64,000 nt of DNA from Thermoplasmata archaeon (GTDB lineage Archaea > Thermoplasmatota > Thermoplasmata > Lutacidiplasmatales > UBA184), in contig JAKIWI010000003.1 of NCBI GenBank assembly GCA_022750115.1, positions 36,927 through 100,926 of the forward strand. Reading direction: 5' to 3'. Below the pieces are notes generated by a model. It made no database searches. It was not told the DNA's origin and was given only the letters and a program-made list of their open reading frames with translations. Positions within the stretch are counted from its first letter, which is position 1, and the number at the start of each line of letters is the position of its first letter. The position numbers and the translations under genes were made by a program. Of the stretch, positions 20,241 to 36,710 are shown piece by piece.

Positions 20241-21143
20241 TCAGCGCGTCGAGGTCCGCGCGCGGGTCCTCGCGAGCACGTAGCGCGCGGCGAGGCTCAT
20301 CGCGAGCATCGCGAGGACCAGGAGGAGCGCGCTCCCCCAGGCGATCGACTCGTAGCGGGGGATCCCGCTGATCCCGTAATAGTAGATCACGAGAGGAAGG
20401 GCTGCGACGGGCCGGTTCAACCCCGCGAAGTCGAAGGTGTTGCCAAAGGCGGTCATCAGGAGTGGCGCCGTCTCACCGGCGGCCCGTGCGGTGGCGAGGA
20501 GCGCTCCCGTGAGGACGCCAGAGCCGGCGGCCGGCAGCACGACCCGCAAGATCGTGCGGAAGCGAGGAAGGCCGAGGGCGAGGGCCGCCTCGCGCGTCGA
20601 AGTCGGCACCAGCCGCAGCGCTTCGTCGGTGGTCCGCGCGACGACGGGCACCATGATGAGGCCGAGGGCCAGCGAGCCCGAAGCGGCGCTGAAGATGTAG
20701 CGCGATTCGATGACGTTCGCCTCCGAGAGATACACCAGGAGCGAGAACACGACGATCCCGATGACGATCGACGGGACGCCCGACATCACGTTCACAAAGA
20801 ACCGAACCCCCCGACCGAGTCGGTTGTCGCCGTATTCGGAGAGGAAGACGCCGGTCAATACGCCCACGGGGAATGCCACGAGGGCGGCAAGACCGACAAG
20901 GAGGACCGTTCCGAGGATCGCGTTGTTGATCCCTCCGCTCGAGCACACCGCTCCTGCCGGGCAGATCACCGCCGGCGGGCCGGAGGTCGTGAGGAGCGAG
21001 AGGTTCAGCGCCGGGAGGCCCTGGGAGAACGCCGCGAACAGGATGCTGCCGAGCGGGATGAGGGCGAGCCCGACGCAGAGGATGCAGAGCGCGGATATCA
21101 CGCGGTTCGCCCATCGTCGACGGCCGCGGCGGGTCGGCCTCAT
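20241..21143 (-). CDS. pstA: Phosphate ABC transporter permease PstA
   Basis: A 300-residue inner-membrane permease. Six helices are visible, and the cytoplasmic coupling loop EAALALGLPRFRTILRVVLPAA is the EAA motif that meets the ATPase. AAGETAPLLMTAFG is a hallmark of PstA. The ATG at 21143 overlaps the end of pstC by 4 bases (ATGA), which fixes the start against the much longer open frame upstream. No pstB ATPase gene follows, contrary to the usual pstSCAB order. Confidence 0.9.
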   Translation of the reverse strand: MRPTRRGRRRWANRVISALCILCVGLALIPLGSILFAAFSQGLPALNLSLLTTSGPPAVICPAGAVCSSGGINNAILGTVLLVGLAALVAFPVGVLTGVFLSEYGDNRLGRGVRFFVNVMSGVPSIVIGIVVFSLLVYLSEANVIESRYIFSAASGSLALGLIMVPVVARTTDEALRLVPTSTREAALALGLPRFRTILRVVLPAAGSGVLTGALLATARAAGETAPLLMTAFGNTFDFAGLNRPVAALPLVIYYYGISGIPRYESIAWGSALLLVLAMLAMSLAARYVLARTRARTSTR

Positions 21144-22138
21144 TCGCGCGCCTCTTCCGGGCGGAAGAATCGACCGAGCAGCAGCACGGCGACGACGTTC
21201 ACCACGACCGTGATCGCGAGCAGGACGAGCCCGAGCTCGAGGAGGGCGCTCTGCTCGAGCGGGGAAGTCGCGGCCGTCAGGAAGTCGTTCGCGATCCAGC
21301 TCGCGATCGTCTGTCCCTGGCTCAGGAGGGAGGTCGAGAGCGTGTTGTTGTTGCCGATGGTCATCGTCACCGCCATCGTTTCTCCGATGGCCCGGCCGAG
21401 GCCGAGGATGATCGCCGCGACGATCCCGCTGCGTGCGAATTGGAGGACCCCGACGCGGGTCGTCTCCCACTGGGTCGCGCCGAGGCTCAGCGCTGCTTCC
21501 CGCTGGGTCGTCGGGACGGCGACCATCGCCTCCCGCGAGACCGCAGAAATCGTCGGGATGACCATGACGGCGAGGATAATCCCCGCCGTCAGCTTGTCCG
21601 CGCCGAAGATCTGACCGGTGAACAGCCCGGTCCAACCGAGCTGGGCCCGCAGGTGCGGTTCCACGGTGACCCGCATGAACGGGACGAGGACGAACAGACC
21701 CCAGAGGCCGTAGATGACCGACGGGATCGCGGCGAGCATCTCGACGAGGCTCGCCATCGGATCGCGGAGCCACGGCGGGGCGAGCTCCGACATGAAGATC
21801 GCAATCCCGAGGCTGATCGGTACACCGAGGGCGATCCCGATCGCCGACGTGACGACCGTTCCTTCGATGAACGGGAGCGCCCCATAGAGCGGCGGGCGGG
21901 CGTTGGCGTTCCAGGTCGAATGGGTGAGGAACCCCGGACCAAACGCGGTGAACGCGAGCTCCGAGCGAAGGGTCAGCAGAACGGTCAGGACGGCCAGAGC
22001 GGCGAGTACTGCGAGCGCGATGCCGGTGCTCAACCATTGGAAGAGCGGGTCGCCCCACCGACGGAGCCACCCTCCGGCCCGGACGACGCGAACTGCCTCC
22101 GCGGCGGGCCCTGGCGCGAGCTCGAGGCCGGCAGCCAC
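21140..22138 (-). CDS. pstC: Phosphate ABC transporter permease PstC
   Basis: A 332-residue permease, partner of PstA. The family motif GIALGVPISLGIAIFMSELAP, the EAA loop REAALSLGATQWETTRVGVL and the PstC-typical RAIGETMAVTMTIGNN are present. It begins 17 bases after pstS and overlaps pstA, giving a tight pstS-pstC-pstA transcript. The N-terminus has about 25 extra polar residues before the first helix. Confidence 0.9.
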   Translation of the reverse strand: MAAGLELAPGPAAEAVRVVRAGGWLRRWGDPLFQWLSTGIALAVLAALAVLTVLLTLRSELAFTAFGPGFLTHSTWNANARPPLYGALPFIEGTVVTSAIGIALGVPISLGIAIFMSELAPPWLRDPMASLVEMLAAIPSVIYGLWGLFVLVPFMRVTVEPHLRAQLGWTGLFTGQIFGADKLTAGIILAVMVIPTISAVSREAMVAVPTTQREAALSLGATQWETTRVGVLQFARSGIVAAIILGLGRAIGETMAVTMTIGNNNTLSTSLLSQGQTIASWIANDFLTAATSPLEQSALLELGLVLLAITVVVNVVAVLLLGRFFRPEEARE

Positions 22139-22155: not shown

Positions 22156-23364
22156 TCAGTGCGTCGAGACGGCCGCCCCGTTGTAGGTGACTAGACCGAG
22201 CGTCTGCTCGTCAAGGGTCACGACGTTCGCGGGCAGAGGAACGTAGAACACGCCCGGAGCGAACGACTGACCCGCGGTCAACACCCAGTAGATGAAGTGA
22301 CCCAGCGAATCGGCGTCGGCCGACGTGATCGACGACCCGAACACTGTTGTGAGGTCCGAGTAGACCATCACGTAGGAGAACGTCACGATCGGGTACGTCT
22401 GGGCCCCGGGCTGGTTCAGGAGGCTGACGTTGTACCAATCCCCGCTACCCGGCGGAAGGCTGGCGCCTCCCTCGGACACGGCCGTCTGGACATTCGATTG
22501 ATTCGCGAGGATGAAGCTCCCAGCGACATTCTGGACAGCGGCGAACGTGAGGTGGTTCAGGTCGGCGTACGCGAGCTCGTCGTAGCCAATGGCCCCGGGA
22601 GTCGTGGTCACCACACCTGCGACGCCAGTGCTGCCCTTGGCGGCTTGACCGACGGGCCAATTGACCGAGAGTCCGCGCCCAACCGTGTCCGCCCAGGTCG
22701 TGTTCACCTGGCTGAGGTAGCTCGTGAAGCAGAACGAAGTCCCGCTTCCGTCAAGGCGGTGGACGACGGTGATGGGCATGGCGGGAATCGTCACTCCCGA
22801 GTTCAACGCGGTAATCTGGGGGTCGCTCCAGTTCGTGATCGTACCGAGGAAGATGCCGGAGATGACCGCGCTCGAGAGGTCGATCGTAGCGACGATCCCA
22901 GGAAGGTTGTAGAGCAGCACGACGCCGCCCGAGGTCTCGGGAATGCTCAAGGTCGGGCCGGGGAGCGCGGCGCGCTGGGCTGGACTCAGGGGGGCGTCCG
23001 ACGCACCGAAGTCAACGGCCTTGTCTTCGAGGGAGGTAATCCCGGACGAACTTCCCACGGGTTGGTAGTTCACCTGCACATTGCAGAGTTGAGCGTACTG
23101 AGCCGTCCATGTGTTCATCAACGGGTAGACGAACGTCGACCCCGCTCCGGTGAGGCTCTGCGGATTCGACGGGCAATGCGCTCCTCCAGAGGCGGCCGGT
23201 TTCAGCCACCCCCCCGCCGTAACTCCCCACGCAACAACGGCAACCACGATCACCACGACGACAACGACTCCCAGAAGCACACCCCTGCGGCGACGCTGAG
23301 GAACCTTCGACAGGTCCGAGGTTGTCGCCGTCGGGTCTGCGAACGACGGAGAGGGGGTACTCAT
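22156..23364 (-). CDS. pstS: Phosphate-binding protein PstS, N-terminally membrane-anchored
   Basis: A 402-residue binding protein that captures phosphate for PstCA. A single helix (GVLLGVVVVVVIVVAVVAWG, about residues 28-48) anchors it; there is no lipobox. The phosphate pocket motifs are all visible: GAGSTFVYP, VGSSSGITSL, VDFGASDAPL and the RLDGSGTSF loop, equal to R-x-D-G-S-G-T of E. coli PstS. The frame runs upstream to 23541, but a TATA-like box at 23466 lies inside that stretch, so ATG 23364 with a leader of roughly 75 bases is preferred. Confidence 0.9.
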   Translation of the reverse strand: MSTPSPSFADPTATTSDLSKVPQRRRRGVLLGVVVVVVIVVAVVAWGVTAGGWLKPAASGGAHCPSNPQSLTGAGSTFVYPLMNTWTAQYAQLCNVQVNYQPVGSSSGITSLEDKAVDFGASDAPLSPAQRAALPGPTLSIPETSGGVVLLYNLPGIVATIDLSSAVISGIFLGTITNWSDPQITALNSGVTIPAMPITVVHRLDGSGTSFCFTSYLSQVNTTWADTVGRGLSVNWPVGQAAKGSTGVAGVVTTTPGAIGYDELAYADLNHLTFAAVQNVAGSFILANQSNVQTAVSEGGASLPPGSGDWYNVSLLNQPGAQTYPIVTFSYVMVYSDLTTVFGSSITSADADSLGHFIYWVLTAGQSFAPGVFYVPLPANVVTLDEQTLGLVTYNGAAVSTH

Positions 23365-23627: not shown

Positions 23628-25019
23628 CTAGATCGAGTAGATGCTGACCTCAGCAGACTCCGTGGCGAAGTTCTGGTTGTTTGCAGGGTCCAAGACGAAC
23701 TGCATGAACCGCTGAACCTCACCCGTGGGGGCTCCGATCGTCACGAACTCGAACGGGCGCCAGCCAACGTACTGGGTGGCCGCCGTGCCCGCGCCCAGAA
23801 TCCCGTTGGCGATAGTGCCGCCCGCTCCCGTCGTGGGAAGGACCGCGTTGGTCTGCCCGACGCCCGAGAATCCGACGATCGCGACGCCCGAGCCGGTGGC
23901 TCGCGCGAGGCCGTCAGAGCCGTAGCCGATCGCGTCCGGGTGCCCGCCAACGCCCGCGATGACCGCGGGGTTGCCGTTGCCCTGCTGGGCCGCCGGGATG
24001 ACGAGGCCGCAGCTCGTGGGCTGTCCGTCCGGCGAGCAGCCGCCGAAGCCAAGTCCAGCCTGGGTGCCGGCGCTGTCCCCAACTCCGAGGAGACGCGCGG
24101 TGAAGGACTGGCTCGTTCCGCTGTTGTCGGATCGGATCCACGGTTGGACTGCGTCCGTCGCGGTTCCGGTGATCGTCGCTGCCGTGCCCGCGAAGGGTCC
24201 GGCGCACACCAGGAAGCCGCACGGGGTAGTCGTGCCCGTGATGTCGTTGCCGCTCACGGTCGCCGCCATGCCGGTACCGGTGTTGGCACCCGCCGGGACG
24301 CCCGCCGCCGCCTGGACGAGGCCGCCGCAGGTCTGGCCGACAAGGCACGCCGGGATCTGGTCCCAAACGATGCCCGTCGTGACAGTCCCGGCGTAGCTAA
24401 CGCCCTGGGTCTGCGGGAAGGTGTACCCGCCGGTCGCCGAGCCGGTGTAGCCGGCGTGGCCGCCGCCGTTGGCCTGGTAGATGGTCATCAGGGTGTCCGC
24501 CTGCATGCTGACCAGTCCGTGAGTGTTGGCGGACGGGACCAGGATGTCCACCGCGTCGTACGCGACCGTCGTGATGACGGGCGCGGGGCTCTGGCCGCAG
24601 CCGTAGCCACCGGACGAGATCGGCTGCTCGAGCTGCGTGAGCGTCTCGAGAGACGATGCCGTGCCGATGTCAACGTTGTGCGCACACACCGAGAGCATTC
24701 CAGCCCCGGAGCCGCCCTGATTGTTGCTCAGGACGACATCCGAGTTGTTCTGCTGGAATTGTGTGACGGCGAGGGCCGTGAACGGGAACACCGAGGTGCT
24801 TCCGCCAATGCTCACCGTCGACTGCGCTCCGGGGTTGCCAACGCCCGACGTGACGCCGCCCTGCCACGCGACCAACCAAAGGTACAGCGCTGCCGCGGCC
24901 GCAACCGCGATCAGGATCAGGATGAGCGTCGCCACGACTGGCGACACTGCCTTCCGCTCCTGCTGGAAGCGCCGGTACCCTCGCCGGTTCCTCATTCGTC
25001 GAGTTCCTTTCTCTCCCAT
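23628..25019 (-). CDS. PstS-like phosphate-binding protein with type IV pilin signal (pilin-PBP fusion)
   Basis: About 463 residues from ATG 25019, which has aaggagagg just upstream; ATG 24995 is possible. The N-terminus is an archaeal class III (prepilin) signal: basic residues, RK at 22-23, then AVSPVVATLILILIAVAAA, cut by a prepilin peptidase before Ala24 so that the helix can pack into a filament. The rest is a PstS-type binding fold: VSIGGSTSVFPFTALAV, NQGGSGAGMLSV, NVDIGTASS, the phosphate loop RSDNSGTS (296-303, R-x-D-x-S-G-T) and a closing GEVQRFMQFVLDPANNQNF. Several cysteines suggest disulfides. It is upstream of pstSCA on the same strand and divergent from a pilus assembly operon, which fits a surface phosphate-capture fibre or bindosome. 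Confidence 0.85.
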   Translation of the reverse strand: MGEKGTRRMRNRRGYRRFQQERKAVSPVVATLILILIAVAAAAALYLWLVAWQGGVTSGVGNPGAQSTVSIGGSTSVFPFTALAVTQFQQNNSDVVLSNNQGGSGAGMLSVCAHNVDIGTASSLETLTQLEQPISSGGYGCGQSPAPVITTVAYDAVDILVPSANTHGLVSMQADTLMTIYQANGGGHAGYTGSATGGYTFPQTQGVSYAGTVTTGIVWDQIPACLVGQTCGGLVQAAAGVPAGANTGTGMAATVSGNDITGTTTPCGFLVCAGPFAGTAATITGTATDAVQPWIRSDNSGTSQSFTARLLGVGDSAGTQAGLGFGGCSPDGQPTSCGLVIPAAQQGNGNPAVIAGVGGHPDAIGYGSDGLARATGSGVAIVGFSGVGQTNAVLPTTGAGGTIANGILGAGTAATQYVGWRPFEFVTIGAPTGEVQRFMQFVLDPANNQNFATESAEVSIYSI

Positions 25020-25261
25020 TCGTTGTTTCCTCTCCTTTCGGTTCTTCGTGCAGTTGCGGTTCTCGGTTCCGAGCCTCGCCGCTGCGGCCGTTCCATCGGG
25101 CTCCGGGTTCTTAGCCGTCCTCGAATGAAATGCCGTAGCACCTCGAGGACGTCGGTTTCCACCGTGTGTGAGGTCGTCACCCACGGTGAGAAGGGGGGGC
25201 CACGGAGACTACGGAATCTCCGGACGCATCGTTCATTCCCGAAGTCCCGTTCAGTCCATCG
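25020..25261. promoter_or_regulatory. Divergent region between pilin-PBP and pilus assembly operon
   Basis: About 240 bases between two outward-facing genes of the proposed phosphate pilus. Apart from the Shine-Dalgarno-like aaggagagg before 25019, I see no convincing TATA box. The leftward frame continues open through most of it, so a longer form of the pilin protein cannot be excluded, though that would bury the signal peptide. Confidence 0.3.
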
Positions 25262-27061
25262 ATGGAGCAGTCCGCAGACGGTCCTACCGCCCTTTCGGGC
25301 ATGCGTGACCAGCTGCCGGCGGTCCTCCGGAGGGGAATTCCCGCCGGCGCCAAACCGAAGGACCGCGCGACCCTCCAGAAGCAGGCGCTCCAGCTCGAGA
25401 AGACCCTACTCAAGCGCCGGACGACGCCGGAGAAGGTCTTCATCCAGGCGGAGCTGGGCTACATGCGCCACCAGCTCCAAGGTGACCGCCGACTCGTCAA
25501 CGTGACCTATGCCGTAAACCCGCCGTACGCCTTCGTTCACATTTCGTTCAACGAGGGGATGGGGGAGTTCGACTACACGGTCCTCGAGCCGAGGCGCTCG
25601 CCAGCCGAGCTGAAGCAGACCGTCGAAATTCGCGCGCGGATGGAGGCGCAGATGGGTCAGGAAGAGATTCCGGTCTCGGCCGGGATCTCGCTCGCCGAGT
25701 CGGCGGAACTGAAGGAGTATCTTCGGAAGAAGTTCCTCTCCGTCCTCGACCTGTACAATATCGATGTCTTGCCGAAGCGTCAGCCAGTTCTTCTCTACTA
25801 TCTCGTCCGAGAATTTCTCGGGTTGGGCCAAACCGACCCGATCCTCCGCGACCCGTTCCTGGAGGACATCAGTTGCCTTGGCCCGCACCTCCCGATGTAC
25901 GTCTTTCACCGGGTGTTCGGCTCCTTGCGCACGAATGTCCAATACGACAACGACATCGAACTGAACAAGTACGTTTTTCGGCTTGCCCAGATCGCGGGAA
26001 AGCACATCTCGATCTACCAGCCGATCCTCGACGCGACGCTCCAGGACGGAAGCCGGATCAACCTCACGCTCGGTACCGAAGTTACCCGAAAGGGTTCGAC
26101 GTTCAGCATCCGGAAGTTCTCCGTCGATCCGGTCTCGCCTATCGACCTGCTTCGATTCGGCTCCGTATCGGCGCAGGAACTCGCGTACTTCTGGACCCTC
26201 GTGGACAATCACCGTTCGTTGCTCATCTCGGGCGGTACCGCCGCCGGCAAGACCACGTTCCTGAACGCGATCTCGATGTTCATCCGTCCGGAGGACAAGA
26301 TTGTCTCGATCGAGGACACGCCGGAAATCCAGATCGACCACGAGAACTGGATCCAGTCCGTGGCCCGTACGGGCTACGGCACCGCCTCGGGGATTGGCGG
26401 GGCCTCCGGCATTTCGGGCCATCCGTCTCAAGTCGTGAAATCCGCGGGTACCGTCACCCTGTTCGACCTGCTCGTCGCGGCGCTTCGCCAGCGGCCCGAG
26501 TACGTCATCGTCGGCGAGGTCCGGGGCGCGGAATCGTTCACCTTGTTCCAGGCGATCTCCGTCGGACACGCGTCGATGTCCACCATTCACGCGGGCTCGA
26601 TCGGGGAGCTAATCCACCGCGTCGAGAACGAGCCGATGAACATCCCGCGCGTCCTCTTTCAGGCACTCGATTGCGTGGCGTTCCCCGCCCAGGTCGTCGT
26701 CAACAACAGTCGGGTTCGCCGCATTACCGGCGTCACCGAGATCCTGGACGTCGATGCCGCGACGAACGAGCTCCTGACGAACGATGTCTTCCGATGGGAA
26801 CCGGCGAAAGACCACTTCACGTTCCTCGGGCGGAGCTTCGTCCTCGAGGAGATCTCCGAGCGCAGCGGCAAGACGATCGAAGCGATCCAGGGGGAGATGC
26901 GGCGCAAGGAGCAGTATCTCGACCTGATGGCGAGGCTTGGGATGACCTACTACAAGGATGTCAGTCGGGCGATCGCGTCCTACTACGTCGCCCCCGACGA
27001 CGCGTTCAAATCCCTCGATTCCAAGGTTGCTCAATCGCTTTCCGCCCCGGTCGGACGCTAG
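25262..27061 (+). CDS. Type IV pilus / type II secretion assembly ATPase (archaeal GspE/TadA family)
   Basis: A 599-residue hexameric motor that powers filament assembly at the cytoplasmic membrane. Visible are an N-terminal regulatory part (to ~290), Walker A GGTAAGKT (324-331), Asp box SIEDTPE (349-355), Walker B VIVGEVRG (415-422) and His box STIHAG (440-445). A glycine-rich insert (GYGTASGIGGASGISG, 371-386) between Asp box and Walker B is seen in archaeal pilus ATPases. The next gene starts 6 bases on, so it heads an operon with two platform proteins. Divergence from the pilin-PBP gene suggests that protein is a client. Related motors include archaellum FlaI, PilB-like and BasE. Confidence 0.9.
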   Translation: MEQSADGPTALSGMRDQLPAVLRRGIPAGAKPKDRATLQKQALQLEKTLLKRRTTPEKVFIQAELGYMRHQLQGDRRLVNVTYAVNPPYAFVHISFNEGMGEFDYTVLEPRRSPAELKQTVEIRARMEAQMGQEEIPVSAGISLAESAELKEYLRKKFLSVLDLYNIDVLPKRQPVLLYYLVREFLGLGQTDPILRDPFLEDISCLGPHLPMYVFHRVFGSLRTNVQYDNDIELNKYVFRLAQIAGKHISIYQPILDATLQDGSRINLTLGTEVTRKGSTFSIRKFSVDPVSPIDLLRFGSVSAQELAYFWTLVDNHRSLLISGGTAAGKTTFLNAISMFIRPEDKIVSIEDTPEIQIDHENWIQSVARTGYGTASGIGGASGISGHPSQVVKSAGTVTLFDLLVAALRQRPEYVIVGEVRGAESFTLFQAISVGHASMSTIHAGSIGELIHRVENEPMNIPRVLFQALDCVAFPAQVVVNNSRVRRITGVTEILDVDAATNELLTNDVFRWEPAKDHFTFLGRSFVLEEISERSGKTIEAIQGEMRRKEQYLDLMARLGMTYYKDVSRAIASYYVAPDDAFKSLDSKVAQSLSAPVGR

Positions 27062-27067
27062 GCGTCG

Positions 27068-28042
27068 ATGTTCGAGAGCGTCGAGGGTCCCACCGAATCG
27101 CGAGACGCCCCGCCCGTCATCGAGAGCCTGCCGAAGCTCAAGGCCAAGAAGTCGAGGACCGAGCCCGCACTCTCCCCCGCCTACCGATCGTTCTGTTACC
27201 GCCTCCTTGGCGAGCGGTTTGATCGCGGCGAGGTCGACATCGTCGCCGCGGAGCGACTCAAGCAAGCCGGCCTGAATATCTCGCCGGGAATGCACCAGGC
27301 GGTCGTCGTGGTCACGACGATCCTCGCCGCGGTCGCCGCGTTGGTGTTCGGCCTCTTGCTGTTCCTCCTCGTGCTCCACTCCCCTTTGTGGTACGGCTAC
27401 GTCGCACTGACCGTCGGGGTCACCGTGATGGCCGTCCAGGCCGGATTCCGGTCCGTCGTCAGCACGCGGATTTCGAATCGCCAGGACCAACTCGACCGAG
27501 AACTGCCGTTCACCCTCAGTGAGCTCTCGGTCCTCGCCAGCACGGGGACGTCCCCGATCGGGCTCATCCGGAGGATGGCGATCCGGGATCATGACCCTGG
27601 GATGACGATGGAATTCAAGCGCGTCATCTACAAGGTCGACATCCAGGGGGAGGACCTGATCACCGCCCTCGCCGAGACGGCGAAAGAGTCGCCCTCGACT
27701 TCGGTCCGCGAGGCGTTCTGGGACCTCGCCAACATGATTCACCAGGGCGGGGACCTTGACGAGTACCTTCGAAACAAGTCGGACGACGTGCTGAAACTGA
27801 AGCGGCTCGTCCAAAAGGCGTTCATCGAGCGCTTGTCGACGTTCCTCGACATGTACGTCTCGCTCGTCCTCGTCGGAGTCCTGATGATCGCCGTCGGGGC
27901 CTTCCTCCTGAACTCGCTCGGCCAGACGGCTGCCGGGCTGGACTCGAACGAGCTTCTGCTGGTACTGACGTTCGGGCTCGTCCCGCTGGCCGTCATCATG
28001 ACGGTGATCATGATCTCGATCGCGTACGCGAGGGCGGAGTGA
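27068..28042 (+). CDS. T2SSF/TadC-type pilus platform membrane protein
   Basis: A 324-residue platform component that couples the ATPase to pilin extraction. A basic cytoplasmic N-terminus (to ~75) is followed by two helices (VVVVTTILAAVAALVFGLLL and YGYVALTVGVTVMAV), a cytoplasmic T2SSF helical bundle (LPFTLSELSVLASTGTSPIGLI, VREAFWDLANMIHQGGDL) and two C-terminal helices. Archaeal systems often have one platform protein; here a second follows with a 4-base overlap, as in Tad systems where TadB and TadC form a pair. Confidence 0.85.
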   Translation: MFESVEGPTESRDAPPVIESLPKLKAKKSRTEPALSPAYRSFCYRLLGERFDRGEVDIVAAERLKQAGLNISPGMHQAVVVVTTILAAVAALVFGLLLFLLVLHSPLWYGYVALTVGVTVMAVQAGFRSVVSTRISNRQDQLDRELPFTLSELSVLASTGTSPIGLIRRMAIRDHDPGMTMEFKRVIYKVDIQGEDLITALAETAKESPSTSVREAFWDLANMIHQGGDLDEYLRNKSDDVLKLKRLVQKAFIERLSTFLDMYVSLVLVGVLMIAVGAFLLNSLGQTAAGLDSNELLLVLTFGLVPLAVIMTVIMISIAYARAE

Positions 28043-29469
28043 GCGCACGCGGCGCGGCCGCGACGATTCTCCTCGTTCTCACGGTCGTCCTCCTTCCGAC
28101 GCTCCTGGCGAGTCACGCCGGGGCCGCTGCGAGCACCGGCGGCAGCCCGATCACGATCACTCCGCTGAGTCCGTCCCCCGGGAGTCAGGAGCCCTCGAAG
28201 ACACCCACGATCCAGGCATCGTTCATCGATTCCGCCGGTACCCCGATCCCCTCGACGGTCACGGTCACCGTGGGTTTCTACAATCTGACCGATAGCGAAG
28301 GCTGGAAAGCGACCCCGGAGGGGGTGACCGTTCCGGTCCCGACGATCCTCCCCCTCAAGAATGGAGTCTGGAACGTCACGGTAGGGGTCGCCGACACCGC
28401 CGGCCACTTCACGAACCTTACCTGGAATTTCACGGTCAATCCCAACGCGACCGTCGCGCCCGCGCCGGTGTTCTCCGTGAAGGCCCAGACGGTGCTCGTC
28501 GACATCGGCATCGGCGCGGTCGTCGCCGTGGTGGCGTTTTTCGCCTACATCTGGTACCTGCGGCAAACGACCCGATTCGCCTTTCGAAAGTATTTCGCCA
28601 CGCACCCGATTCAGAAGGAGTACCTCGTTCTGTACATTCCACTCGTCGTTGCGTTCGTCTTCGTCCTGCTCGGTCTCGATTACGTCACCTCGACTCCGGG
28701 CCTCCCGTCGTACTCGACCGACCTCGTGATAATCATCGGCGTGTTCATCGGACTCACGGCCTACGGAATCGATGCCCGTCGCCAGCTGTCCCGCCTTCGT
28801 GTGTTCGAGCGGGCGTTCGCGCAGCTCCTCTTCGAGCTCGCGGACGCGATGCGCGGCGGCCTTGATCCCGCCAAGGCGATGATTGAGCTCTCCAAGACGC
28901 ACACCAACGTCCTCCGGAAGCCGCTCAAGATCGCGGCCGACGGCCTCCTCCTCGGGCGACGATTCGACGCCGTCCTCCACGACATGGTCGAGCCGATGAA
29001 GAGCCCCCTGATCCGACGCTACGCCGCGCTCATCGCAGAAGCGACGGATGTCGGCGGCGAGACCGCGATCGTGATCTACCGGGCGGCGAAGGATATGGAC
29101 GATTTCGTCAAGATCGAGGAAGAGCGGGCGAATCAGCTCACCCTTCCCATCGCCGTCATTTACATCGCGTTCGCCGTCTTGATGGCCGTCCTGTTCGCCC
29201 TGCTATACATCGCGCCCGAACTCGGCTCGCTCAACATCGGCCTGATCAACGGCGGGGGGAGCGCGCTCAAGGGGACGACGGCGAGCACGGTCCCTCGGCT
29301 CGACGTAGACACCCTCCACGAGCGGTTCTTCGAGCTGTGCATCATCAACTCGCTCGGAACCGGCGCCATCATCGGCGCCTTCAGTGAAGGCCGCGCCCGC
29401 TACGGGATCGTCCACGCGCTCGCGCTGGTGGCGGCGACGACGATCGCCTTCCTGTTCATCTTCCCCTAG
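28039..29469 (+). CDS. Pilus platform protein with N-terminal secreted Ig-like domain (T2SSF fusion)
   Basis: 476 residues with an unusual layout. A signal-like helix (AATILLVLTVVLLPTLLA) leads to an extracellular domain of about 110 residues (35-145) with Ig/fibronectin-like beta strands (TVTVGFYNLTDSEGW, GVWNVTVGVADTAGHF) and N-glycosylation sequons. A helix (~152-175), two more helices and a cytoplasmic T2SSF bundle follow (AFAQLLFELADAMRGGLDPAKAM, IAEATDVGGETAIVIY), then three late helices. Standard platform proteins lack an outer domain, so this could guide or grip the fibre outside. It overlaps the preceding platform gene by 4 bases (GTGA). Confidence 0.85.
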   Translation: MSARGAAATILLVLTVVLLPTLLASHAGAAASTGGSPITITPLSPSPGSQEPSKTPTIQASFIDSAGTPIPSTVTVTVGFYNLTDSEGWKATPEGVTVPVPTILPLKNGVWNVTVGVADTAGHFTNLTWNFTVNPNATVAPAPVFSVKAQTVLVDIGIGAVVAVVAFFAYIWYLRQTTRFAFRKYFATHPIQKEYLVLYIPLVVAFVFVLLGLDYVTSTPGLPSYSTDLVIIIGVFIGLTAYGIDARRQLSRLRVFERAFAQLLFELADAMRGGLDPAKAMIELSKTHTNVLRKPLKIAADGLLLGRRFDAVLHDMVEPMKSPLIRRYAALIAEATDVGGETAIVIYRAAKDMDDFVKIEEERANQLTLPIAVIYIAFAVLMAVLFALLYIAPELGSLNIGLINGGGSALKGTTASTVPRLDVDTLHERFFELCIINSLGTGAIIGAFSEGRARYGIVHALALVAATTIAFLFIFP

Positions 29470-29494
29470 CCCGGCCCGCGGCGGGACCCCGGGG

Positions 29495-30361
29495 TCACGT
29501 CTGGTAGGTGTAATTGATCGTCGAGCTGCCGATGAGCCCGTTCGAGTTCTGCACCATCAGCGCGATCGTGAAGGTGAACGTCTGCCCGATTTGCGTCGAG
29601 ACGAACGGCGCGATTAGCTTCTCTCCCGCGTAGGTCTGGGGAGGGGGACTGAGGCCGCCAGTCGTGTTGACGACGGACCAGGTCCACGACACGATCGTGC
29701 CGTTCCCCTGCTGGAACGACGTCGACCCATCGAGAACGGGCACGTTGCGGAACTGCATGCCGACGAATTCCGATACCGTCCCGATCAGGGGGATGGCGGT
29801 GGGCGGAAGGAACACCGAGGTGAATGTGTTCTGCAAGATGGTGAACAGGTCGATCTGCAGGTAGGAGTTCACCAGCAGCGTCGTCGTCGGCGAGAAGAAT
29901 CCGTTCGGGCAGGTGCCCGTCGACAGGAGGTTCACGGTCACCTCCACTTGCTGGAACGACGGCAGGATGAATTGGGTCGAATCGTCGTAGCAAAACGGAG
30001 CTCCGCCGGACGGCGAAACGTTCTGGACGAGGAAATGGGCGAGAGGGTTCCCGTTCACGGCGATCGAGGCGACGGTCGAGGGATTCACGAACTCGCTCGC
30101 GAGAACGAACGAGAAGCTCCCCAGCATCAACTGGTTCGGCACCGGTCGCGGCGTGACCCCCGTCACGTCCAGCACCTTCAGCGATTCGAGGCTCCGTTGG
30201 TGCGCCTCGGCCTGCTGCGCCTGCAATTGCTTCTGGTACGAGGCGACGAAGGCCGCGAGCGCGATCGAGGCTGCTACTACGATCAGTACCAGCATCAGCG
30301 TGCCGACAACCTCCGCGATTCCTCGGTTTCCCATCGGGAAACGGCGTACCGCCCGTCGCAC
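29495..30361 (-). CDS. Type IV pilin-like protein
   Basis: About 288 residues from a GTG at 30361; ATG 30334 (MGNRGIAEVV) is an alternative start. The class III signal is clear: a basic N-terminus, NRG, then IAEVVGTLMLVLIVVAASIALAAF, followed by a polar coiled extension (YQKQLQAQQAEAHQRSLESL) and a beta-rich C-terminal domain with FCYDDSTQF and a CPNG cysteine. It is convergent with the platform operon and is the likely structural or minor pilin of the system. A cctaaagg box about 25 bases before the GTG supports the longer form. Confidence 0.8.
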   Translation of the reverse strand: MRRAVRRFPMGNRGIAEVVGTLMLVLIVVAASIALAAFVASYQKQLQAQQAEAHQRSLESLKVLDVTGVTPRPVPNQLMLGSFSFVLASEFVNPSTVASIAVNGNPLAHFLVQNVSPSGGAPFCYDDSTQFILPSFQQVEVTVNLLSTGTCPNGFFSPTTTLLVNSYLQIDLFTILQNTFTSVFLPPTAIPLIGTVSEFVGMQFRNVPVLDGSTSFQQGNGTIVSWTWSVVNTTGGLSPPPQTYAGEKLIAPFVSTQIGQTFTFTIALMVQNSNGLIGSSTINYTYQT

Positions 30362-30397: not shown

Positions 30398-30477
30398 TAC
30401 GAAGATTGTGTAGTTGGACCGTAATCTTCGTACACTCCCTATGGCATCGTTATGCGAGTGGAGCGGTAGTTGGCTGC

Positions 30478-31107
30478 ATGGGGCTCCCGGTCGAGGTGCC
30501 GGGCCTCGGCACCATCGTCCACGAGCTCTCCGAAGGGACGATCGTCATCGTCGAGAGTGGCGCCGACGGTGCGAAAAGTTTCCTGGTTCGCACGCTGGCC
30601 CGGACGGCTCTGAATCGGGGTTGGCCGGTCACCTATCTCACCTCCCGTGACGGTCCGGACGTACGGACGGCGCTCCTCAACGGCGGCGTCGCTGCCCCTC
30701 CACCGGCGGGACTTCTCAGCGTGGTCGAGCTCGACTCGCTGAAGGACTGGCTCCCCGTCGGGCTTGAGCGCGGCCTCCTCGCCATCGACTCGTTTTCGTT
30801 CCTGACCCTCGACCTGACCCCGACCCAGCTCGCCACCACTTTGCGGGAGCTTCGGGAGCGGTGCCACCGGTCCGGTCTCGCCGTCGTGCTGGCGACCGAC
30901 CGCGGGATGTTCGAGCCGCGGGGCGAGGCGATTGCGATCCATCTCGCCGACGGTCTGATCCAGTTCCATACCAAGGAAGGGCCCGAGGGACTGATCCGAT
31001 ATCTCCGGGTACCGAAGTGGTCGGCAGGTACGTTAACCGACCGAAATATCTACTACGATTTCGACGGCAAGCACATGGCGATCGACCTGCGACGACGGGT
31101 GCTGTAG
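30478..31107 (+). CDS. RecA/KaiC-like ATPase with degenerate Walker A (FlaH-like role possible)
   Basis: A 209-residue RecA-fold protein. The P-loop reads ESGADGAKSF, i.e. GxxxxAKS with the second glycine replaced by alanine; Walker B is LLAIDSFSFL. The strand order (VPGLGTIVHEL, IVIVES, WPVTYLTSRDG) matches KaiC/RAD55/FlaH proteins, which partner pilus motors in archaellum systems. ATG 30478 begins directly before the core; the frame upstream is not conserved-looking. It sits 9 bases before an AAA+ gene, in the pilus neighbourhood. A role as an accessory regulator of the motor is inference. Confidence 0.65.
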   Translation: MGLPVEVPGLGTIVHELSEGTIVIVESGADGAKSFLVRTLARTALNRGWPVTYLTSRDGPDVRTALLNGGVAAPPPAGLLSVVELDSLKDWLPVGLERGLLAIDSFSFLTLDLTPTQLATTLRELRERCHRSGLAVVLATDRGMFEPRGEAIAIHLADGLIQFHTKEGPEGLIRYLRVPKWSAGTLTDRNIYYDFDGKHMAIDLRRRVL

Positions 31108-31116
31108 GGGGATTCG

Positions 31117-32247
31117 GTGCCCGCGCCGTCCTACGAACGCTACGGACTCGTCAGCAACCCGTTCCGGGACCTGGCAAGTGAGAGTCTCGAGGATGTCGAG
31201 CTCTTCCACGTCAACCTCGAGCTCGACCGGCTCCTCGAGACGATGCGCGAAGAGGTGTTCGCGAAGGAGAACCGAGCGGTCGTGGCGCTGGTCGGCCTCC
31301 ACGGGGCCGGCAAGACCGAACGATTGCTACTCACAGCGGCGGAAGCGAAGGCCCGGACGGCGTTCTCCGTCTACTTCGACGTCACGACCAAGACGACCTG
31401 GGTGACGAAGGGCGTCGCGTCCGCCGTCGTCGCCGCGGCCCACTTCGGTGGATTCAAGCAGTTGTTCAGCGCCCCCAAATGGTTCCGCGACATTGTCGCG
31501 GTCCAGAAGGCCAAGGAGACCGCGTACGACCCCGTGCGCACCGGTCGAGCGATCGCGAGCGCGCTGAACGCGAACGCCCCCGCGTTCCTTCTGCTGAACG
31601 ATCTCCACAATCTCGCCGCCACCAAGGAGCGGGTGCTGTTCGTCAAGACCCTCCAGGAGATCATCGACGGAATCAAGCCGGGGGTCATGATCATGTTCGG
31701 CGCGTTCCCGAGCTTCATGCTCCAGCTCGCGCGCGAGCAGACTCCGCTGACGAGCCGCATCAACCGGACGGTCGTCCTCCCGCGACTCTCGGCCGACGAG
31801 GCTACCTTACTCATCGCCAAGAAGCTCCTTGCGAAGCGTCTCGTCGAGGGGCTAGACCCGCTCTACCCGTTCGACAAGGACGTCGTCACCAAACTGAACC
31901 TCATCGCCTTCGGGAATCCCCGCCGCCTGCTCGAGCTCACGGATGCGGCCCTTGAGTTCGGCGCTGCCCATCGGTCGTACCGTGTCGATGAAGAGATCCT
32001 ACGGACCGCCCTCGTCGAGCGCAAGGTGAAGGAGATCGACCGCATCATGGACGAATCGTTCTCCTGGTCGGAAGACACGATCTTCGATGACCCCGCCCAT
32101 GCCCAGTCCGTCCCACCGAGCGCTACCCCCGCGTCCCCCACCAAAGCGGCCGTCGCCAGCGCCTCGGTAGCTTCGCCGACCTCCGCCGCGGGGTCGCTGC
32201 CTGTGTCGCGCTCCGGGCCCGGCGAGCGCGGAGTACCCCCGTCGTGA
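31117..32247 (+). CDS. AAA+ ATPase (ExeA / Cdc6-like) with low-complexity tail
   Basis: 376 residues. The opening YGLVSNPFRDLASES is the typical start of ExeA/GspA-like and ORC-like AAA+ proteins. Walker A is GLHGAGKT (60-67), Walker B AFLLLNDLHNL, sensor 1 is near MIMFGAFPSF, and a late IAFGNPRRLLELTDAA is sensor 2-like. The last ~60 residues are Ala/Ser/Pro-rich. GspA/ExeA relatives help insert secretion machines in bacteria. Here it is co-transcribed with the RecA-like gene next to a pilus locus, so an assembly or positioning role is plausible but unproven. Start is GTG 31117. Confidence 0.7.
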   Translation: MPAPSYERYGLVSNPFRDLASESLEDVELFHVNLELDRLLETMREEVFAKENRAVVALVGLHGAGKTERLLLTAAEAKARTAFSVYFDVTTKTTWVTKGVASAVVAAAHFGGFKQLFSAPKWFRDIVAVQKAKETAYDPVRTGRAIASALNANAPAFLLLNDLHNLAATKERVLFVKTLQEIIDGIKPGVMIMFGAFPSFMLQLAREQTPLTSRINRTVVLPRLSADEATLLIAKKLLAKRLVEGLDPLYPFDKDVVTKLNLIAFGNPRRLLELTDAALEFGAAHRSYRVDEEILRTALVERKVKEIDRIMDESFSWSEDTIFDDPAHAQSVPPSATPASPTKAAVASASVASPTSAAGSLPVSRSGPGERGVPPS

Positions 32248-32347: not shown

Positions 32348-32854
32348 ATGGATTCCGACACCGCCGGAATGAAGGCTTGGAACGGTCCGGGGGACGCACC
32401 CAAGGCAGGGGCGCGCTCGAAGCGTTCGGCGGTCTACCTGGCGCTCATTGTGGTCGCCGTGGTCGTCGTGGTAGCGGTCTTTGTGACCGTCTTCGTTCTC
32501 CCGGGCCGAGCCCACACCCCGGCCCCCTCGGGGACCGTCCTGGTGCCCTCGGGACACTCGTACGACGTCTTTGGAGGGCAGTGGTCGGCGGTCTCATTCT
32601 CCCTCGCCTCGACCCAGACGCTCCGGGGGGCGTTCTCGACCACCTTCGGGATCACGGCGTATGTGATGACCAACATCCAGTACCAGCAGTTCGTCCACAG
32701 CGTGAACGTGACGGGATACCAGTGGGCGTCCGGCGAGGTCCACGCGGGGACGCTCGATGACAGCCTTCCACCGGGATCGTGGGATCTCGCGTTCATCGAC
32801 CTCAACGCGCAGTCGACGTCCGTGCTCATCACCACCCCCGTCACGATCGGGTAG
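32348..32854 (+). CDS. Membrane-anchored extracellular protein, unknown
   Basis: A 168-residue protein with a short cytoplasmic lead, one membrane helix (AVYLALIVVAVVVVVAVFVTVFV) and an outer beta-rich domain of ~110 residues. The domain (VLVPSGHSYDVFGGQWSAVSF, LRGAFSTTFGITAYVM, LPPGSWDLAFIDLN) resembles the small pre-peptidase-like beta-sandwich seen after anchors in Thermoplasmata surface proteins. The anchor style matches PstS at 22.2 kb. It is convergent with the PhoU-like gene. Confidence 0.6.
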   Translation: MDSDTAGMKAWNGPGDAPKAGARSKRSAVYLALIVVAVVVVVAVFVTVFVLPGRAHTPAPSGTVLVPSGHSYDVFGGQWSAVSFSLASTQTLRGAFSTTFGITAYVMTNIQYQQFVHSVNVTGYQWASGEVHAGTLDDSLPPGSWDLAFIDLNAQSTSVLITTPVTIG

Positions 32855-32896: not shown

Positions 32897-33940
32897 TCAG
32901 GCCGTCACGGCGACGCGCTTCGGGCGGTCCGTCTCGGAAATGACGGCCATGTTGATCGCCTGCTCCGCGATGTCGGCGGCGTAGCGGACGGTCCTCCCGA
33001 GGCTGTCGACGACCGTTCCGAGGGCGAGGAGCTCCTCTCCCTTCCGGGTCGCGACATGGTGCGTGAGTTGGTCAATCAGTTTCTGGTGGTCCGTCTGCCG
33101 GTCGATCGCCTCGTTCGCGGCCTCGACGTCGCGGGCGATCAGGGCACCGAACGACTTGTCGAGGATGGAGACGGCTGAGTTGGTCGCCTCCTCGAGCTCC
33201 TTCATCAATTTCCCATCGATCGCTTTGCCCGGGCCGAGGGTCCCGAGGGTGCCCGCGATCCGCTCCGCATGGTCCCCGACGCGCTCGAGGAGCTTCGCGA
33301 CGAGGCAATGACTCTGGATTTCCGCGGCCTGGCCCCGACCGTCGGCGTCGCCGGGGAACGGACGGAGCATGTGGTACTGCTTCGCGACCATCCAGTAGAG
33401 GCGGTCGACATCCTGGTCCCGCTGCGCAACGTCGTGGGCGAGCGAAGTGCCGCCCGACTTCAGGGCGAGGATGGCATCCTCCAGCATCGCCCGGACGATG
33501 AGGTGCATCCGGCGGAGGCACTTCTCCGAGTTGAGCTCCGACGTATCCGAGAGGTCCTGGATGACGAGGGCCGTGCGGGTCTCCTCGATCACTTCCGGGC
33601 CGATGACGAGGTGGCAGAACTCGCGGGCGACGCGGCGGACGAACGGTCCCCGCGGCGGGTGGAAGCGCACCTCGATGAGTCCGAAGCCGGAGATGTACGC
33701 GCCGATCAACTTGCGGAGCAAATGATCGCGGGTGTCCTCCCCGCGCTCGTCGAACACCTTGCGGAGCACCGCGGGCTTCTCGTGCGGCTGACGGCGCACG
33801 GAGACGGAGCCGTCCACCTCGGTCTCGACGAAGATCGTGTCGCCCGCCTTGAGTCCCGAGCTGTGAACCCAGCGTTTCGGGAGAGAAACGAGGTACGTCG
33901 AGCCTCCGGCGAGCTGTAGCTTGCGGCCCTCCAATGGCAT
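32897..33940 (-). CDS. AbrB-PhoU phosphate uptake regulator
   Basis: A 347-residue archaeal PhoU. An N-terminal AbrB/SpoVT swapped-hairpin DNA-binding domain is visible (1-45: LQLAGGSTYLVSLPKRWV, GDTIFVETEVDGSV), followed by PhoU helical bundles (~115-340) with metal-cluster-type acidic repeats such as KLLERVGDHAERIAGTLG and DSLGRTVRYAADIAEQAINM. Members of this family couple phosphate status to transcription and Pst activity. It is not adjacent to pstSCA (about 9.5 kb away) but flanks the pilus and phosphate region. A TATA-like cttaaag lies about 37 bases upstream. Confidence 0.85.
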   Translation of the reverse strand: MPLEGRKLQLAGGSTYLVSLPKRWVHSSGLKAGDTIFVETEVDGSVSVRRQPHEKPAVLRKVFDERGEDTRDHLLRKLIGAYISGFGLIEVRFHPPRGPFVRRVAREFCHLVIGPEVIEETRTALVIQDLSDTSELNSEKCLRRMHLIVRAMLEDAILALKSGGTSLAHDVAQRDQDVDRLYWMVAKQYHMLRPFPGDADGRGQAAEIQSHCLVAKLLERVGDHAERIAGTLGTLGPGKAIDGKLMKELEEATNSAVSILDKSFGALIARDVEAANEAIDRQTDHQKLIDQLTHHVATRKGEELLALGTVVDSLGRTVRYAADIAEQAINMAVISETDRPKRVAVTA

Positions 33941-34091: not shown

Positions 34092-35333
34092 ATGTGCGAT
34101 TTGGGAGCGTTCCGCCCGATTGGCCGGCGGCTTCGGACAGACGTGAACGACGCGACCGCGGAACGAAAACGGGCGGACAACGGCGCCGCTCCCGACCCAG
34201 CTCCGCGGTCCCGTCCGTTTCCGGGTCTCCACGTGGTCACGCGCGACCCGCTCTGCGCCGAGACGCCCCTGTCCCACCTGGACGAGTGGATCACGCCGAC
34301 CGAGCGGTTCTTCGTCCGGAGTCACCTTCCGATCCCGACGATCGACCCGAACTCCTGGCGGCTCGTCGTCGACGGCGAGGTCGACCGACGCCTCGAGATC
34401 GGCTTCGACGAACTCCGCCGCGAACGGACTCGCACCGTCGTGACGACGATGGAGTGCGCCGGCAACGGACGCAGCTCCGTCTACCCACCTGCCGAGGGCG
34501 TTCGGTGGACCCAGGGTGCCCTCGGCACCGCCCGCTGGACCGGCGTCTCGCTCGGGGACGTGCTCGCGAGGTCGGGGATCCGTCCGGGCGCGATCGAAGC
34601 GGTGTTCGAGGGAGCCGACCACGGCCGGGAACCCGAGGTCCCCGAGGAGCTGACCTACGCGATGAGCGTCCCGATCGTCAAGGCGGAGCACCCCGATACG
34701 ATCCTCGCCTTCGAGATGAACGGCGAACCGCTCACGGTGGCCCACGGATTTCCGGTGCGCGCCATCGTGCCGGGGTGGTACGGCATGGCGTCCGTGAAGT
34801 GGATCACGCGCGTCTCGCTAATCGACCACTCGTTCAAGGGATACTACCGAACGCGACCTTACACGTTCATCCATGAGGGCGACGACCCGAACGTCCTCCG
34901 CAAGCTCGTTACCACCCTCCAGGTCAAGTCGGTCATCACCGCCCCAGAACAAGGGGCCTCGGTCCCGACCGGCACCGTCGTGGTGCGAGGCGCGGCGTGG
35001 TCGGGAAACGCCGCGATCGCCCAGGTCGAGGTCGCCGTCGGAATTCCGGAAGACGCCGGGGGAACCGGGAGCTGGCAGACCGCGACCCTTGTCGGGCCCC
35101 GGACCCCGCATGCGTGGGTCCGATGGGAGCTCCCGCTCGAGTTCCCTCGTCCCGGGTACTTCGTGCTTCGGTCTCGGGCGACGGACGAACGGGAGGATAC
35201 CCAGCCCTTGCGCGCCGAATGGAACTTCCGCGGCGTCGCGAACAACTCGATGCACGCTGTGCCCCTGATCGTTCGCCTCCCCCCTGACGGCCCTCCGAAC
35301 GGGGGCCGGTTTCCCCGAGAAGCCAACCCCTAA
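34092..35333 (+). CDS. Sulfite oxidase-family molybdopterin enzyme
   Basis: A 413-residue oxidoreductase with the sulfite oxidase fold. The molybdenum-ligating cysteine is Cys122 in TTMECAGNGRS; GVRWTQGALGTARWTGVSL and the pterin-binding HGFPVRAIVPGWYGMASVKW follow. The C-terminal ~130 residues are the Mo-co dimerisation (Ig-like) domain (VRGAAWSGNAAIAQVEV). There is no signal peptide and no haem domain, so it is probably a cytosolic sulfite dehydrogenase or a related sulfoxide-type enzyme. The TSUP permease at 42.4 kb could export sulfite or sulfonates for the same metabolism. Start could also be GTG 34143. Confidence 0.85.
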   Translation: MCDLGAFRPIGRRLRTDVNDATAERKRADNGAAPDPAPRSRPFPGLHVVTRDPLCAETPLSHLDEWITPTERFFVRSHLPIPTIDPNSWRLVVDGEVDRRLEIGFDELRRERTRTVVTTMECAGNGRSSVYPPAEGVRWTQGALGTARWTGVSLGDVLARSGIRPGAIEAVFEGADHGREPEVPEELTYAMSVPIVKAEHPDTILAFEMNGEPLTVAHGFPVRAIVPGWYGMASVKWITRVSLIDHSFKGYYRTRPYTFIHEGDDPNVLRKLVTTLQVKSVITAPEQGASVPTGTVVVRGAAWSGNAAIAQVEVAVGIPEDAGGTGSWQTATLVGPRTPHAWVRWELPLEFPRPGYFVLRSRATDEREDTQPLRAEWNFRGVANNSMHAVPLIVRLPPDGPPNGGRFPREANP

Positions 35334-35338
35334 ATACC
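35330..35338 (+). promoter_or_regulatory. TATA-like box of the ammonium transporter
   Basis: ctaaatacc about 78 bases before GTG 35412, overlapping the end of the preceding gene; predicts a leader near 50 bases. Confidence 0.35.
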
Positions 35339-35411
35339 CTCAAACTCGGAATTCACCGTCGGCGAGTCGGTCCCTGATGGCATTCGATTCCGGCGCACCA
35401 CCGAGGGGTCC

Positions 35412-36710
35412 GTGCTAGGCGAGCTGGTCAACAATCTCTGGGTGATCATCGCCGCGCTGCTCGTCTTCACGATGACGATCGCCGTCGGCCTCCTCGAGGT
35501 CGGCGAGCTCGGCGAGGCGCTCTACGCGAGCCTGATGAAGACCGTCCTGATGACGTCGGTCGGCCTGTTCGTCATGGCCATCGTCGGGTTCAACACCGCG
35601 TTCGCGCCGACGATCGGCGGTGGCGTGATCGGGAACCCGTTCTACCGACCCGGCCTCTTCCTGGGAAGCTTCGCGGCCAGCCCTGCGACCGCACCCGGCA
35701 GCGTCTGGTGGTCGATGGGACCGAGCTGGTTCAATACCGGGCTCGACACCGGCACCTACTTCCTCTTCGAGACGGCGTTCGCCGCCGTCACGCTCGCCCT
35801 GGTGGGGGTCGTTGTCCTCCGCAAGATGAAGCCGATGGCGCTCGTCGGCTACTCGGCCGTCTACTTCGTCCTCATCTGGAACCTGCCCGCCGCCTGGATC
35901 TGGAATCCGTCGGGCTGGCTCGCGAAGCTCGGGATGGTCGACTTCGCCGGAGGACTCGTCGTCCACGGCGCGGCCGGCGCGGCGGGTCTCGGCTTACTCT
36001 ACCAATTCTGGAGAGAGGAGCGCGCGAAGGGATACAAGGAAAGCCCGCAGGTCCCGATCCACATCTCCCCCGGCTGGCTTACGCTCGCGATCCTCTTGCT
36101 GTGGGTCGGCTGGTTCGGGTTCAACCCCGGGAGCGTCCTCGCCTTCAACGACCAAACGACGGTCGTGGTGCTGACGACGTTCCTCGCCGCCGCCTCGGCG
36201 ATGATCTCGGTCCTCCTGTTCCGCCACCTGTTCCACAGCCAGGCGCCGTCGCTCCTCGACGCTGTCAATGGGGTCCTGATGGGACTCATCGTGATCACGC
36301 CGATCGCCGGGTTCGTGAGCCCGGCGAGCGCGATGCTGCTAGGATTCCTCGGAGGGCCGCTGTTCCTCGCGGGGGAACAGTACTTCGCGAAGTGGAAGTG
36401 GGTCTCCGACCCGGTCGGCCTGTTGCCGGGACACCTCCTCGGCGGCCTCTTCGGTGTCGCGATGATCGCCTTCTTCGCGCAGCCCGAGTACTCGGGCGCT
36501 CTTCCGGGGGTCGCGAGCCTTCCGACTCTCCCGGCCGGGCTCCTCTTCGGCGGCGGGGGCGCGGCGGTCCGCCAACTCGGCATCGAGATGTTCGGCGTCG
36601 TCGTGGTGATGGTGGTCGTGTTCGTCCTGTCGTTCCTGACGGCGTGGGTCCTCGCCGGGACGATGGGCGGGATCACCACCGACTACCAGAAGGAAGGCAT
36701 CGTCCCGTAG
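35412..36710 (+). CDS. amt: Ammonium transporter (Amt/MEP/Rh family)
   Basis: A 432-residue, eleven-helix ammonium channel. The twin histidines of the pore are present, His185 in GGLVVHGAAGAAGL and His341 in LLPGHLLGGLFG. Also visible are the periplasmic vestibule Trp/Phe residues (FLFETAFAAVTLAL) and the helix WVGWFGFNPGS with its conserved Asn. The C-terminal cytosolic segment is short (TTDYQKEGIVP), and no glnK gene follows, although amt-glnK pairs are usual. Start is GTG 35412 with no in-frame ATG upstream nearby. Confidence 0.9.
   Translation: MLGELVNNLWVIIAALLVFTMTIAVGLLEVGELGEALYASLMKTVLMTSVGLFVMAIVGFNTAFAPTIGGGVIGNPFYRPGLFLGSFAASPATAPGSVWWSMGPSWFNTGLDTGTYFLFETAFAAVTLALVGVVVLRKMKPMALVGYSAVYFVLIWNLPAAWIWNPSGWLAKLGMVDFAGGLVVHGAAGAAGLGLLYQFWREERAKGYKESPQVPIHISPGWLTLAILLLWVGWFGFNPGSVLAFNDQTTVVVLTTFLAAASAMISVLLFRHLFHSQAPSLLDAVNGVLMGLIVITPIAGFVSPASAMLLGFLGGPLFLAGEQYFAKWKWVSDPVGLLPGHLLGGLFGVAMIAFFAQPEYSGALPGVASLPTLPAGLLFGGGGAAVRQLGIEMFGVVVVMVVVFVLSFLTAWVLAGTMGGITTDYQKEGIVP

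Follow-up and report, generated by a model that had tools for sequence, protein, structure and literature searches.

The question raised by this locus is whether a solute receptor can be built into a surface structure made by the type IV pilus (T4P) machinery. On the minus strand of the window, by which we mean the whole 64,000-nucleotide stretch of Thermoplasmata archaeon DNA analyzed here, a gene at 23628..25019 encodes a 463-residue protein (hereafter the pilin-PBP) in which a class III prepilin signal is joined to a PstS-type phosphate-binding domain. This fusion had been recognized in a sequence-only reading of the region, and both of its halves are borne out by scores above the cut-offs of the TIGR02537 and PF12849 models, by a PstS fold match, and by the orthologues.

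The prepilin signal and the PstS-type domain

The pilin-PBP reading frame is open and starts with an ATG at 25019, with a GGAG-type ribosome site upstream. The N-terminus of the product, RK-A/VSPVVATLILILIAVAAAAALYLW (the slash marks the predicted cut), scores 33.7 bits against TIGR02537, the archaellin/type IV pilin N-terminal domain (cut-off 20), and prepilin cleavage is predicted after A24, in the context ...QQERKA/VSPVVATLILILIAVAAAAALYLWLVAWQG. The genome to which the window belongs (G000, contig 26) encodes a candidate enzyme for this step, a prepilin peptidase with the GGAD motif that scores above the cut-off of PF06847 (32.3 vs. 29.9 bits) and below that of PF01478 (23.0 vs. 26.5 bits). 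The predicted mature N-terminus aligns over 36 residues (VSPV-ATL-LILIAVAAA--LY-W) with that of the solved Iho670 pilus, the adhesion filament of Ignicoccus hospitalis; Iho670 is a fibre-forming pilin of ~300 residues, and the match is confined to the helix, with no PBP domain matched. Conservation of the signal in orthologues was among the checks proposed with the sequence-only reading, and it was indeed observed. Over the pilin helix, taken as the 30 residues that follow the predicted cut (codons at 24858..24947, minus strand), the mean identity among orthologues is 97.9%, compared with 47.9% in the PBP part. In 153 orthologue pairs, these 30 codons differ by a mean of 12.8 synonymous and 0.7 nonsynonymous changes per pair, a pattern indicating protein-level selection to maintain the helix sequence. 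Recent gene conversion was also considered as the source of the conservation and was rejected given the wide divergence at synonymous sites.

Such a helix could, in principle, serve only as a membrane anchor for a monomeric PstS, with the adjacent motor building an ordinary pilus from the companion pilin described below. Class III signals are carried by many archaeal binding proteins (PMC2910488, PMC4371748), the cluster includes a companion pilin, and related PBP domains are found on plain membrane anchors. Nevertheless, we regard this explanation as unlikely: the helix is nearly fixed despite the many synonymous changes, whereas the anchors of the ordinary PstS proteins here are merely hydrophobic and vary freely in sequence, and the helix of the companion pilin is itself less conserved (76% identity between orthologues). 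A common, nearly fixed H-domain is likewise characteristic of the adhesion pilins of H. volcanii (PMC4371748). Judging from its sequence, the fixed helix of the pilin-PBP is more in keeping with the core of a polymer than with a plain anchor, and we infer that the protein is a polymerising subunit and probably the major one. Pilus fibres usually rise by ~5 Å per subunit; by a rough estimate, a fibre of 45-kDa pilin-PBP domains would be ~17 nm wide, which a flexible linker of ~14 residues could allow.

The PstS-type domain scores above the cut-off of Pfam PF12849 (41.3 vs. 27 bits) and below those of the strict PstS models TIGR02136 (58.1 vs. 206.6 bits) and TIGR00975 (33 vs. 205 bits). The structural comparison with PstS that had been suggested for this protein gave a consistent result: with an AlphaFold model built from 19 orthologues (mean pLDDT of 69 and pTM of 0.70, with the inserts at low confidence), the top 41 fold matches in the PDB were all phosphate-binding proteins (E 2e-13; TM-score on target <=0.79). 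The phosphate loop, previously described as R-x-D-x-S-G-T, is present as R-S-D-N-S-G-T, with R272 and G277 (mature numbering) invariant in the 19 orthologues, among which the GGSTS loop is nearly invariant as well. No Asp is found at the equivalent of Asp56 of E. coli PstS, and the same is true of solved phosphate-binding relatives. Thus, the pilin-PBP resembles the PstS proteins of PF12849 and TIGR02136 in its predicted fold and phosphate-loop residues but differs from them in being anchored through a pilin helix rather than through a lipobox or plain membrane anchor, and in possessing extra conserved cysteines and large inserts, which vary among orthologues. These inserts, together with the scores under the strict PstS cut-offs, would be compatible with a domain that does not bind phosphate and instead forms a structural or other-ligand head of the pilin. 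We consider this very unlikely, given the invariant and nearly invariant residues of the two loops, the identity of the closest folds, all of which are PstS, and the genomic linkage to PhoU and Pst genes described below. In two other loci (L094:9930-11828 and L105:9101-10996), PBP domains ~40% identical to that of the pilin-PBP are attached to the membrane by a plain anchor and a stalk that contains repeats, and one of these genes adjoins PhoU.

The adjoining motor cluster and its distribution

The pilin-PBP gene had been described as facing a pilus ATPase and two platform proteins, and this arrangement was confirmed. A divergent intergenic region of 242 bp (25020..25261), which may hold divergent promoters, separates it from plus-strand genes for an assembly ATPase of the T2SSE family (25262..27061; PF00437, 4e-33) and two T2SSF platform proteins (27068..28042 and 28039..29469; both PF00482), the second of which has an N-terminal extension. 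The platform genes are conserved neighbours, as is the minus-strand gene for the companion pilin (G/IAEVVGTLML) at 29495..30361, the pilin of the sequence-only reading, which scores just below the cut-off of TIGR02537 (19.0 vs. 20) and is probably a minor or priming pilin. Two further conserved neighbours on the plus strand encode a KaiC-family ATPase-like protein (30406..31107, with the true start probably near 30478; weak PF06745) and an AAA ATPase (31117..32247; weak PF13401). The former was also considered as an ArlH/FlaH protein, but its predicted fold matches KaiC/RecA and not specifically FlaH. Next on the plus strand is a gene for a small protein of no known family with one predicted membrane helix (32348..32854). 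Relatives of this protein are encoded beside the pilin-PBP in several other loci (L035, L037, L040, L042, L046, L100, and L101), sometimes directly downstream of it. At the far end of the cluster, a minus-strand gene (32897..33940) encodes PhoU with an N-terminal AbrB/MazE-like domain (PF01895, 1.8e-20; PF04014, above the cut-off), and PhoU occupies the cluster end in many pilin-PBP loci. Adjoining the cluster, two genes were noted by eye at 34092-36710, the first sulfite-oxidase-like and the second ammonium-transporter-like.

Relatives were searched for within the phylum Thermoplasmatota, and full-length pilin-PstS fusions were found in six families, namely, the window's own, two others of the same class (f22 and f29), and three from elsewhere in the phylum (f43, f48, and f61). 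The named relatives carrying a pilin-PBP are Thermoplasmata MAGs, several of which belong to the AcS series. One pilin-PBP contig (L047) is filed under an Acidobacteriaceae MAG and is most likely misbinned archaeal DNA. Among plasmid-borne sequences, the search for relatives yielded a single weak match, to a cyanobacterial PstS. A T4P ATPase is encoded beside the pilin-PBP gene in all six families, compared with 0 of 20 ordinary PstS loci drawn from the same search, within the sequence read, some of the contigs being short (p = 4e-6). Within the window's family, represented by 103 genomes, the pilin-PBP is present in 30, the ATPase orthologue in 22, and both in 21 (Fisher p = 7e-14, a value that overstates independence because the genomes are related). 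In the sole genome with the ATPase only, a contig end truncates the ATPase gene, and of the nine genomes with the pilin-PBP only, several are incomplete or likewise truncated. Orthologues of the pilin-PBP thus usually adjoin an assembly ATPase, another of the points on which the sequence-only reading was to be judged: the ATPase is divergently encoded in 29 of the 34 loci with a readable upstream region, and among the five others (L036, L041, L043, L049, and L050) are second copies as well as one locus whose motor lies at a distance of 10 kb. Such recurrence argues that the arrangement of pilin-PBP and motor is not accidental.

The phylogeny of the ATPases points in the same direction. In a quick-search tree comprising 45 T4P ATPases, one clade (SH-aLRT 100) unites the 14 sequences linked to a pilin-PBP, including that of the window, to the exclusion of the 31 others, many of which come from the same genomes and two of which sit on very long branches. 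The window ATPase scores 382 against the FlaI model (cut-off 550) and 166 bits against BasE (cut-off 1000); all linked ATPases tested fall below both cut-offs, the relatives far below that of BasE. The genome of the window carries a second T4P operon (L056:6138-13108) with a pilin, two ATPases, and two platform proteins but without a PBP. The high FlaI score was considered as a sign of an archaellum-type motor and rejected, since similar scores were obtained for the ATPase of this second operon and for the other linked ATPases. Collectively, the tree and the gene linkage suggest that the pilin-PBP has a dedicated motor, with an ATPase clade of its own, inherited together with it, which weighs further against a helix that does no more than anchor a monomeric receptor.

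Linkage to the Pst permease

On the other side of the pilin-PBP gene, the window contains the pstSCA genes noted in the sequence-only reading, all on the minus strand and all scoring above the respective cut-offs: an ordinary PstS with a non-pilin membrane anchor (22156..23364; TIGR00975, 321 bits; the ORF is open upstream to 23541), PstC (21140..22138; TIGR02138, 289 bits), and PstA (20241..21146; TIGR00974, 236 bits). Origin of the pilin-PBP as a recent duplicate of the neighbouring PstS is unsupported, the two proteins belonging to different PstS subfamilies. The contig carries a second pst cluster, this one with pstB, and a Pit-type phosphate permease is encoded ~10 kb from the pilin-PBP cluster (13356-14219, plus strand; PF01384, 122.7 bits). 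Members of the window's family mostly have a pilin-PBP gene that does not adjoin pstCA.

Outside the window's family, the pilin-PBP gene directly precedes one for a PstC-PstA fusion of 1071-1123 residues (L089, L090, L162, L163, and L164), and in two of these loci (L162 and L163) pstB is found at the distal end of the motor cluster. The long fusions have 4-5 N-terminal membrane segments and were encountered exclusively next to pilin-PBP genes of families other than the window's; the ordinary PstC frames in the same genomes comprise 304-365 residues, or 630-666 when fused. In three of the long fusions, the first membrane segment of PstC is separated by ~320-335 residues from the rest of PstC, and the hydropathy profile of each of the five contains a stretch of ~370 residues devoid of membrane segments. 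The ~370 extra residues may represent an extracytoplasmic insert at the docking site of a binding protein. For L089 and L090, the two loci whose full sequence was read, no other PstS is encoded between the pilin-PBP and the long PstC-PstA.

A different situation is encountered in G250, a genome that is 93% complete and carries a complete pilin-PBP cluster with PhoU (L097), but in which neither a PstC over the cut-off nor a Pit was detected and the pilin-PBP is the only PF12849 protein. Either the permease lies in the missing part of the genome, or the system has another use there; with the system present and no Pst permease detectable, delivery of phosphate to PstCA is doubtful in this organism. 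The case of G250 would fit a phosphate-responsive adhesive or sensory pilus, one that feeds no transporter and whose PBP either acts as a phosphate sensor or attaches to phosphate-rich surfaces or minerals. The linked PhoU, KaiC, and AAA genes could be viewed in the same light, KaiC-family ATPases being known companions of archaeal T4P loci (PMC4858521). However, the binding-loop residues are kept, and outside the window's family the gene lies directly 5' of pstCA, with pstB at the other end of the cluster in the two loci named above, so that we give this possibility little credence.

Comparison with known archaeal systems and proposed function

The closest described counterpart is the Bas system of Sulfolobus solfataricus, in which substrate-binding proteins with class III signals are cut by PibD, a T4P-type ATPase and platform are required for surface display, and the displayed proteins are found in large complexes, the bindosome (PMC4187195, PMC4371748); no fibre has been seen (PMC4187195). 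Being a substrate-binding protein with a class III signal that is accompanied by a T4P-type ATPase and platform, the pilin-PBP appears to follow the bindosome principle (PMC4187195, PMC4371748, PMC2910488), and yet its cluster departs from Bas in having a motor outside the BasE family, two platform genes in place of the single BasF, and one companion pilin in place of BasABC. It differs further in the predicted ligand, phosphate here and sugars in Sulfolobus, in the linkage of the binding protein gene to the motor and to PhoU, and, outside the window's family, in the association with a modified PstCA permease. The cluster shares with the archaellum the ATPase and platform families and the presence of a KaiC-family protein, but an archaellum identity was rejected: in addition to the FlaI score given above, the score against the FlaH model is 13 vs. 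a cut-off of 194 bits, and Lutacidiplasmatales, the order in which the AcS isolate names and PMC9287336 would place these soil genomes, are reported to be without archaellum genes (PMC9287336). A phosphate version of the bindosome had been thought to be undescribed, and we found none published in the open-licence literature searched, although an entry in the 2007 FlaFind survey is still possible; the word phosphate is absent from the 2016 census of archaeal T4P (PMC4858521).

We consider it likely that the pilin-PBP cluster encodes a bindosome-like system for phosphate, served by a dedicated motor. Under this scenario, the pilin-PBP would be exported by Sec and its signal cut by the prepilin peptidase of the genome, whereupon the neighbouring ATPase and the two platform proteins would use the conserved N-terminal helix to assemble it into a surface polymer, short or long, with a PstS domain on every subunit, probably primed or capped by the companion pilin. 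Such a polymer would enrich phosphate locally at the membrane and, in genomes with a Pst permease, may pass phosphate to PstCA, with PhoU coupling expression or activity to phosphate status; the KaiC-family and AAA proteins may have roles here as well. Given that no retraction motor is evident in the cluster, a short, membrane-proximal array is favoured over a long fishing fibre. Several observations count against the bindosome-like reading, namely, the moderate confidence of the structural model, the scores under the strict PstS cut-offs, the non-Asp residue at the Asp56 equivalent, the G250 genome without a permease, the PBP relatives on non-pilin anchors (L094 and L105), and the lack of any observed fibre even in the case of the Sulfolobus bindosome. 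A further-reaching proposal, which we put forward tentatively and would not yet favour on balance, is that these clusters encode a distinct kind of ABC importer, whose binding protein doubles as the major subunit of a pilus polymer assembled by the motor. Outside the window's family, this polymer would dock on a dedicated PstC-PstA fusion via the ~370-residue extracytoplasmic domain, and pilin-PstS, motor, PstCA, PstB, and PhoU would be inherited as one unit across the phylum.

Overall, these results suggest that the Thermoplasmatota lineages with a pilin-PBP and its motor build a surface structure for gathering phosphate. To our knowledge, sugar uptake in Sulfolobus is the only context from which the bindosome is known. 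If the insert in the long PstC is a docking domain, it would explain how cargo is handed over from a polymerised receptor to the permease, and the pilin-PBP clusters supply clean gene sets for testing. If our reading is correct, the existence of a phosphate version in another phylum, with a linked and phylogenetically separate motor, would imply that archaea make general use of pilus machinery for the mounting of transport receptors.
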